Shown piece after piece: positions 62,206 to 63,050 of a stretch of 64,000 nt of DNA (within the stretch, counting starts at the first letter, position 1; the number at the start of each line of letters is the position of its first letter). The DNA lies in contig JAQJZZ010000014.1 of NCBI GenBank assembly GCA_030077755.1, positions 3,224,001 through 3,288,000 on the forward strand, given 5' to 3'. Below the pieces are notes generated by a model. That model made no database searches and had not been told where the DNA came from. It saw nothing but the letters and a program-made list of their open reading frames with translations. This DNA is from Filosporella fistucella. Taxonomy: Eukaryota; Ascomycota; Leotiomycetes; Helotiales. The position numbers and the translations under genes are program-made.

Positions 62206-63050
62206 ATGAAGTACCCAAGCCCATACGTCGCGCTGTTTGCAGCCACCGCCGTCCTTGCCGTCCCTTTGAACATCAACATGGGTGCTTATTCTCCTGCCTT
62301 GGTAGTCGGTGATGGTGCTATTGGATTCAAGGGAGCAGAATCAGTCAACCAGATCATGAATACTCTTCAGGGTGCTGCCGCAAGTATGTTATATCTGATG
62401 TCAACTGCATCAAAAGCCTCATACTAATCTATCTAGGTAACGCAGCGGCGAACGGCGCCGCAAATGCTGCTCCCGCTGCTGCGCCAGCTGCAGGCAACCC
62501 ATCGAACATTGCCCCAGCCGGAAATGCACCAGCTGCAGAGTCTGTTGCAGCTCTAAGTCTCCCAGAAGGAATGGGCAAGAGCGTTATCGCTCGCGAGGAC
62601 TTGACAAAGAGGCTCTCTGCAGAGGAATTTGCTGCTATCGAGGCAGAGATTGCTGCTGAGGATGCTGAGAAGCGCGACCTGAGCGCCTCAGAGTTCGCCG
62701 CCATCGAAGCAGAAATTGCAGCAGAGGATGCTGAGAAGCGTGACCTCAGCGCCGCCGAGTTTGCTGCTATTGAAGCTGAGATTGCTGCACAAGATGCTGA
62801 GAAGCGAGATCTTTCAGCAGAAGACTTGGCAGAGATTCAAGAGGATATTGAGGAGGAAGACGCGGTAAAGAAACGTGATCTTGCTGGATTCAATGCTGCG
62901 CTAAACTTTGCGACAGGCGCGTTAAAGACTGGACCCGAAGTACAGCTTGGAACTGGGGAGGGTGGATCAGGAGTTGGTATCACACAGAAGGCTGGAGGAA
63001 CACCATCAGCGCCGGCGAGAAACGCTACGAGGATTATTGGGAAGCTGTAA
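62206..63050 (+). CDS. secreted Kex2-type repeat peptide precursor (KEP-like)
   Basis: Exons 62206-62383 and 62437-63050 join across a 53-nt intron (donor GTATGT, branch ATACTAAT, acceptor ATCTAG) for 263 residues. Residues 1-18 are a signal peptide (MKYPSPYVALFAATAVLA). 'VPLNINMGAYSPALVVGDG' is shared with the gene at 49101-49869. After an Ala/Pro-rich spacer, four units at residues 119-206 each end in Lys-Arg. Units 2 and 3 share 'EFAAIEAEIAA' and are 22 residues; unit 1 is 21; unit 4 is diverged, 23 residues, and ends Lys-Lys-Arg. They are acidic and predicted amphipathic-helical. A last peptide (207-263) begins DLAGFNAALNFATGAL and contains 'QLGTGEGGSGVGIT'. The layout is that of fungal Kex2-processed repeat proteins, from which Golgi Kex2 would cut several short peptides. 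No repeat contains Tyr, so a cyclic ustiloxin-type product is unlikely. The role of the peptides is unknown. Confidence 0.9.
62613..62876 (+). repeat. four in-frame coding repeats, 63-69 bp
   Basis: Units are 62613-62675 (63 bp), 62676-62741 (66), 62742-62807 (66) and 62808-62876 (69). Units 1 to 3 are very similar in protein sequence; unit 4 keeps only the opening DLSAE and the dibasic end. Lengths divisible by three keep frame, so copy number could change by unequal exchange without breaking the gene. Confidence 0.93.

Follow-up and report, generated by a model that had tools for sequence, protein, structure and literature searches.

A putative Kex2-processed repeat precursor in a two-box protein family of Helotiales, with a counterpart of its unit in a second precursor

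Gene A and its precursor protein

We analysed a window of 64,000 nucleotides, corresponding to positions 3224001-3288000 of contig C13 in a 45.8-Mb genome of 19 contigs. On its forward strand, gene A (62206..63050) starts with an ATG at 62206, and its stop codon ends at 63050. Two exons (62206-62383 and 62437-63050) give a spliced translation of 263 aa of secreted type. We take the 53-nt intron between them (62384..62436, GT..AG borders, CTAAT branch-like site) to be real because its removal joins two frames that both align with homologues, the best of which (among the 120 matches listed) cover 98% of the protein. The original prediction, made from the sequence of the window, had called this intron in-phase: the spliced frame does continue, but a length of 53 nt is not divisible by 3, and the intron is of phase 1, splitting a codon after its first base.

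Residues 1-18 (62206..62259), a short hydrophobic N-terminus ending in ..AVLA, were assigned by eye as a putative signal peptide, and the aligned homologues, also judged by eye, start with a similar hydrophobic segment. They are followed by an N-box (residues 20-41, 62263..62328, PLNINMGAYSPALVVGDGAIGF) and by an Ala/Pro-rich linker that contains the intron and reaches the first KR pair (residues 42-118, 62329..62612, from the translation and the alignment). The spliced translation then runs through four units of 21 aa (62613..62675), 22 aa (62676..62741), 22 aa (62742..62807) and 23 aa (62808..62876), and ends with a 57-residue fragment after the last KR (62877..63047), which contains the conserved C-box (residues 211-243, 62889-62987). 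Units 1-3 end in EKR; unit 4, which is divergent (43-52% identity to the other units), ends in KKR. Five KR pairs (first residues 117, 138, 160, 182 and 205) bound the units and are followed by LS, DL, DL, DL and DL. The four KR-ended units had been predicted as such, and five KR pairs were reached in none of 20,000 shuffles of the gene A protein (maximum 4, in 2 shuffles). At the DNA level the units form a 66-nt tandem array with 3 copies at 66-nt spacing (TRF score 235). The unit tract makes up 88 of the 263 residues (33%), and the protein has a calculated pI of 4.4 and neither cysteine nor tryptophan. The description of the units as acidic and Ala/Glu-rich was right.

The units had also been taken for amphipathic helices, a claim that we dropped since their hydrophobic moments were not above those of shuffles. 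At 100 degrees, the four window units gave 0.07-0.18 against shuffle means of 0.16-0.18 (5,000 shuffles each), all four lying below their own shuffle mean, and in none of 14 peptides tested did the moment exceed that of 95% of the shuffles (P0012 supplied the best, which 6.7% of its shuffles reached).

Gene B, a second member of the same family (49869-49101, reverse strand, intron 49271-49226), lies ~12 kb from gene A on the opposite strand and has an N-box and a C-box without repeat units. A KR pair is also found shortly upstream of its LPTVTLLKIRSLG motif. Among 10 neighbouring open frames in the window, six matched Pfam families (chaperonin, alpha/beta hydrolase, glutaminase and 2OG oxygenase among them, two of the six frames being pieces of one lipid-flippase ATPase), and the other four matched no Pfam family.

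The two-box protein family

We searched a protein collection with gene A, yielding, from 7,998 scored candidates, 538 matches with an E no higher than 0.001, and based the family counts on the best 120 of these 538. The N-box pattern was found in 119 of the 120 listed homologues, the exception being a record that begins inside the box, and the C-box pattern (core FNAAL..ATGAL..PEVQLGTGEGGSGVGI) in 118 of the 120, the exceptions P0021 and P0093 being records that end earlier or differently. No Pfam domain was present in any of the best 120 of the 538 homologues, Pfam searches with gene A and three relatives returned sub-threshold matches only (none for one relative), and a PDB profile search for solved relatives gave no match at E up to 1. 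The names shown among the 120 matches listed are hypothetical or uncharacterised proteins and one 'Ppe family protein', and their genera include Phialocephala, Mollisia, Acephala, Drepanopeziza, Diplocarpon, Cadophora, Lachnellula, Coleophoma and Venustampulla. All four homologue species whose taxonomy was checked are Helotiales, as the remaining named species presumably are. Cysteine after residue 25 occurs in 12 of the 120 listed homologues.

Immediately upstream of the C-box, within six residues, KR is found in 105 of 118 listed homologues, RR in 2 and a single Arg in 11. Across the 117 two-box proteins, no dibasic site lies in 2,574 N-box residues or in 3,861 C-box residues, and dibasic density reaches 0.115 per residue over the 8 residues directly preceding the C-box versus 0.008 in the rest of the linker, a ratio that is descriptive since the 117 proteins are related and not independent. 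On this sequence evidence, the layout is one of two near-invariant boxes flanking a variable linker, with a basic site before the second box, and the boxes define an uncharacterised protein family of Helotiales of predicted secreted type.

Downstream of the C-box, homologue groups B and C carry a TVTxxxxR-type motif (69 of 121 sequences) or V[NS]LN (20 of 121); a dibasic pair is found at most 12 residues upstream of 39 of the 69 and 10 of the 20 motifs, and the family as a whole may consist of multi-peptide precursors. The genome under study has a third family member on C16 (L003), with both boxes and without repeat units. By an indirect proxy, gene-A-like and gene-B-like proteins seem to lie on one contig in Phialocephala subalpina (PAC_11264 and PAC_11273), and likewise in Acephala, Mollisia and Stipitochalara; in Cadophora gregata f. 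sp. sojae they are on different contigs.

Repeat number across homologues

We defined the gene-A group by the GDGAIGF form of the N-box, found in 21 of 121 proteins (the 120 listed matches and gene A); P0122, found by the unit search described below, raises it to 22. Units were counted with a pattern applied to the fragments that result from cutting at KR, KK or RR, and their dibasic ends therefore arise partly by construction; the alignment shows these ends independently for the proteins it includes. Unit number among the 22 gene-A-type proteins ranges from 0 to 5, with three or more in four of them: gene A (4), P0012 (5), P0021 (4, the record ending inside a unit) and P0122 (3 by pattern and 5 by eye, the record ending soon after). 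Two units each were found in P0001, P0002 and P0009, one each in P0003, P0004, P0005, P0013 and P0093, and none by pattern in the remaining ten (P0006, P0007, P0008, P0010, P0011, P0014, P0015, P0016, P0018 and P0022). These ten have both boxes (of the N-box, P0014 has the end only), and several have other KR pairs in the linker. By the same pattern, units are absent from all 100 other family proteins. Since proteins without units occur both among the gene-A type and in the rest of the family, the core function of the family would need no units.

The original prediction had proposed looking in homologues for a variable repeat number with conserved dibasic ends. Repeat number does vary and the units that are present end in dibasic pairs, but 10 of the 22 gene-A-type proteins have no unit at all. 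Homologues without conserved Lys-Arg pairs had been named as contrary evidence, and the ten proteins without a unit by pattern supply it in part; before the C-box, however, KR or RR is kept in 107 of 118.

In Drepanopeziza brunnea, P0012 with five units and P0015 with none have identical flanks, a contrast that could reflect either a difference in gene prediction or real variation in length. Two Coleophoma proteins, P0088 and P0103, carry after the C-box a different, Tyr-containing KR repeat (TEPFTYDAEGNE[IV]EKR) in four copies and one copy, respectively. Judging from the sequences, the two-box family may have gained repeat tracts on more than one occasion.

Constraint on the units and the fate of the KR pairs

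Units 1-3 of gene A, pooled, gave a pS of 0.77 versus a pN of 0.07, values that rest on small counts (~15 synonymous sites per unit) and saturated distances. The C-box compared between the three paralogues of this genome (genes A and B and the C16 member) gave a pS of 0.68-0.79 and a pN of 0.06-0.18, to which units 1-3 are similar. High pS with low pN indicates that the array is old and not a fresh duplication and that its amino-acid sequence has been held; by this measure, the unit peptide sequence in gene A is under constraint. The KR pairs closing units 1-3 are encoded by AAGCGC, AAGCGT and AAGCGA.

That KR is kept at unit ends though the Arg codon varies speaks against a protein that stays intact, in which the KR pairs would be left uncut and the acidic repeat would bind cations or act as a helical linker within an extracellular or wall protein. 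The absence of dibasic sites from the boxes and their concentration at the C-box border point in the same direction. We consider an intact protein improbable, although an acidic low-complexity tract between two conserved boxes would suit it, as would the AlphaFold2 model of P0001, which places helices in the unit region (block pLDDT about 54-80). The AlphaFold2 models of two relatives are of low confidence (mean pLDDT 57.4 and 57.1, pTM 0.25 and 0.22) and consist of isolated helices, one of them at the start of the C-box, their best-scored part, with the N-box lacking regular structure. Such models would fit a flexible precursor.

A second precursor on contig C18

The C-terminal part of gene A, used as a query against the genome, gave an additional match at C18:106527-106958. 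It lies in an uninterrupted frame of 302 aa with a signal-like start (L005:940-1848, about 106131-107039 of C18), in which we saw by eye neither an N-box nor a C-box. Its units include LSAAEQAEIDAEVAQEDAEKR and LSAAEFAAIEEQIAKDDAEKR, with 68-81% identity to gene A units 1-3, alongside a second kind of unit, DLASEAAELQALSDATHAGETVDKR. Unit boundaries are not all kept in this precursor: TR replaces KR at one unit end, a unit close to the start fuses both kinds, and the last copy runs as EDAE into the stop codon, with no KR. One unit is present in three copies that are identical in protein and differ with a pS of 0.76-0.89, and the second kind of unit has a pS of 0.62-0.98 and a pN of 0.02-0.14.

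When the genome was searched with the units only, gene A and the C18 precursor were the only matches at E below 0.01, followed by gene A antisense (E 0.08) and a match on C14 (E 6.2). The exactly reversed tract, used as a genome query, missed C18; gene A was the sole locus returned, and its match was weak, with a best E of 0.03. Gene conversion between gene A and C18 is disfavoured by a pS of 0.5 or more in every unit pair, an argument that applies to recent exchange only. The frame adjoining the C18 precursor (L005:2274-3131) resembles by eye a secreted polysaccharide (chitin) deacetylase (TFDDGPW).

Matching units in other species

A search with the C18 precursor gave a single homologue with an E of 0.001 or lower, P0121 from Rhynchosporium agropyri (Helotiales). 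A protein search with the units only, at E up to 10, retrieved five proteins: P0122, P0123, P0021, P0121 and P0002. The last three had already turned up in the earlier searches. Of the two new ones, P0122 is a gene-A protein from Cadophora gregata, whereas P0123, from Cadophora sp. DSE1049, is a precursor of the C18 type. Close resemblance links LTAEEEEELDEEIDFEDNAKR, a gene-A unit of Cadophora gregata, with LTAEEEEELDEEIAEEDAAKR, a C18-type unit of Cadophora sp., and likewise ..AQEEAAISDNTKR of Rhynchosporium with ..AQEEAAITDNTKR of Cadophora gene A.

When the three C18-type precursors were each compared with nine gene-A proteins, the best match came from the precursor's own genome or from the nearest sampled named lineage, with scores of 77, 92 and 80, the latter two shared with P0021; for two of the three the runner-up was near the best (76 and 76). 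In the window genome, gene A scored 77 against C18, versus 44.5 against Cadophora gene A. Four of five cross-precursor unit pairs had scores reached by none of 2,000 shuffles, these four being non-independent (two share P0123, and the matching units of P0021 and P0122 are identical); the score of the fifth, Rhynchosporium versus the gene A of the window, was reached by 2 of 2,000. P0122 and P0123 were themselves retrieved using such units, and part of the resemblance is due to this selection. Read with that ascertainment bias in mind, the unit sequences suggest that the peptide co-evolves across the two precursor types.

These comparisons bear on the possibility that the acidic units are a disposable spacer or pro-segment, with Kex2 cutting the protein, the box fragments mattering and unit number free to vary. 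The boxes are far more conserved across species than the unit tract, the most constant basic site is the one before the C-box, and the pattern search that left ten of the 22 gene-A-type proteins and the whole remainder of the family without a unit fits such a spacer as well. It is harder to reconcile with a unit pN that is low relative to pS and comparable to that of the C-box, with a near-identical unit in the box-less C18 precursor, and with the related units that two precursors similar to it carry in other species. We regard a spacer role as the less probable reading, though one to be taken seriously.

Comparison with known precursors

KEPs are defined in PMC6339444 (Le Marquer et al. 2019) and PMC7329392 (Umemura 2020) by a secretory signal peptide, by at least 3 similar units of 8 aa or more, none over 100 aa, lying between Kex2 sites, and by repeats that make up at least 15% of the protein. 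Behind its putative signal peptide, gene A has four such units, each of 21-23 aa and bounded by KR, a unit number that fits gene A and not its whole group, in which 4 of 22 proteins reach three units, and its coverage is more than twice the required 15%. The original call of a Kex2-type repeat precursor is thereby supported, as a prediction, by the testable parts of both definitions. With the KEPs of these surveys gene A shares the similar units separated by KR and a tract above 15%, and its signal-like start, seen by eye, would be a further likeness; unlike the KEPs as described there, its tract lies between family-wide boxes and has a near-identical unit in a box-less second precursor. The gene A unit matches none of the motifs named in the section on conserved peptides of PMC6339444 (EDYXI, DADAATXYV[A/V]D, YVW[G/A][G/S], SPPHKT, QKLKVD and XSDW). 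In the tables of PMC7329392, KEP types are given for Phialocephala, Cadophora and Rhynchosporium, though not their sequences, and a relative of gene A may be among the KEPs listed in those surveys. A text search of a paper library with the N-box sequence and six locus tags gave no match, and a query pairing KEX2 with the terms acidic and helical returned nothing related among titles and the opening lines of abstracts.

Leotiomycete pheromones are described in PMC6339444 as having two conserved cysteines. Alpha-type pheromone precursors resemble gene A in their tandem KR-ended copies, and the C18 precursor in a last copy that runs to the stop codon; gene A differs from them in having neither an XA/XP Ste13 signature after KR nor any cysteine, and is therefore not an alpha pheromone of the Leotiomycete type. 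The Leotiomycete pheromone pattern, which we take to be WCxxPGQxC, had no match in the genome when searched at the DNA level, and the genome's pheromone gene was thus not located as a control.

Dikaritin and ustiloxin precursors likewise have KR-bounded repeats, and the overall KEP layout is alike, so that gene A could in principle encode the precursor of a cyclic modified peptide. We think this very improbable. The units of gene A contain neither Tyr nor Cys, and of 27 genome matches to UstYa (PF11807, DUF3328) the nearest lies ~118 kb from gene A on C13 and the nearest to the C18 precursor ~290 kb away, leaving none within 100 kb of either. The idea of a RiPP cluster was dropped for want of a nearby UstYa gene. 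The early judgement that the units were unlike pheromone or Tyr-containing cyclic cores agrees with these results.

Another likeness is Rep1 of Ustilago maydis, whose Kex2-released linear repeat peptides are unconnected with mating and affect the wall properties of hyphae (PMC6339444). Linear repeat peptides, a Kex2-type layout and the lack of a link to mating are also what we predict for gene A; the Rep1 peptides differ in their 37 residues and basidiomycete origin, and the two are likened by description only.

Proposed reading

Our preferred explanation, to which we give a probability of about 0.55, is that gene A encodes a precursor from which Kex2 processing releases several peptides, the acidic one being a selected product. 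The protein would enter the secretory pathway, a Kex2-type protease would cut after each Lys-Arg in the Golgi, and a Kex1-type carboxypeptidase would trim the basic ends. The predicted products are an N-box fragment, four related acidic Ala/Glu-rich peptides (~19-20 residues) and a C-box fragment. One locus with a P-domain (PF01483), of Kex2 type, is present in the genome on C2, and the processing enzyme is therefore likely to be available. The acidic peptide would itself be selected in that its sequence was held while synonymous sites drifted, and the box-less C18 precursor would make nearly the same peptide. Cleavage, release and function of the gene A peptides are steps that we infer.

Unit constraint together with the counterpart in a second precursor argues for the acidic peptide being a product as well. 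As to which fragment functions, constraint and the box-less C18 counterpart favour the acidic peptide, the boxes are the most conserved parts family-wide, and both are candidates. We counted against the preferred explanation the gene-A-type and other family proteins without units, the lack of a Ste13 signature after KR, the ascertainment bias in the cross-species comparison and the low confidence of the structural models. Acidic Ala/Glu-rich sequence converges easily, and we counted this against it too. If the peptide is a product, a linear secreted peptide acting on the fungus itself, as a signal or at the surface or wall, is more likely than a modified toxin.

The functions of KEPs are described as largely unknown in PMC9769878, which also presents a Pichia protocol for KEPs of Coprinopsis. 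The gene A unit would be one KEP peptide with measurable constraint that recurs in a second precursor and can be traced through several Helotiales. It provides a peptide that can be synthesised, a natural series of copy numbers and two genes that can be removed, making a non-pheromone KEP function testable. The occurrence of nearly the same peptide in an otherwise unrelated gene hints that the peptide itself matters. The near-invariant flanking boxes form an uncharacterised family for which we found no Pfam model and no solved relative. The box family, gene B, the C18 unit match and the unit constraint go beyond the original prediction and are new to this analysis.

More tentatively, and we think it rather doubtful as a whole, Helotiales may make a conserved non-mating acidic peptide signal of ~20 residues from two otherwise unrelated precursors, with selection through a shared receptor or target, or sequence exchange from one locus to the other, keeping the two sets alike within lineages while they drift between them. 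The conserved motif that we propose for this peptide is L-[ST]-A-x-E-x-x-x-[IL]-[DE]-x-E..D-A-E.
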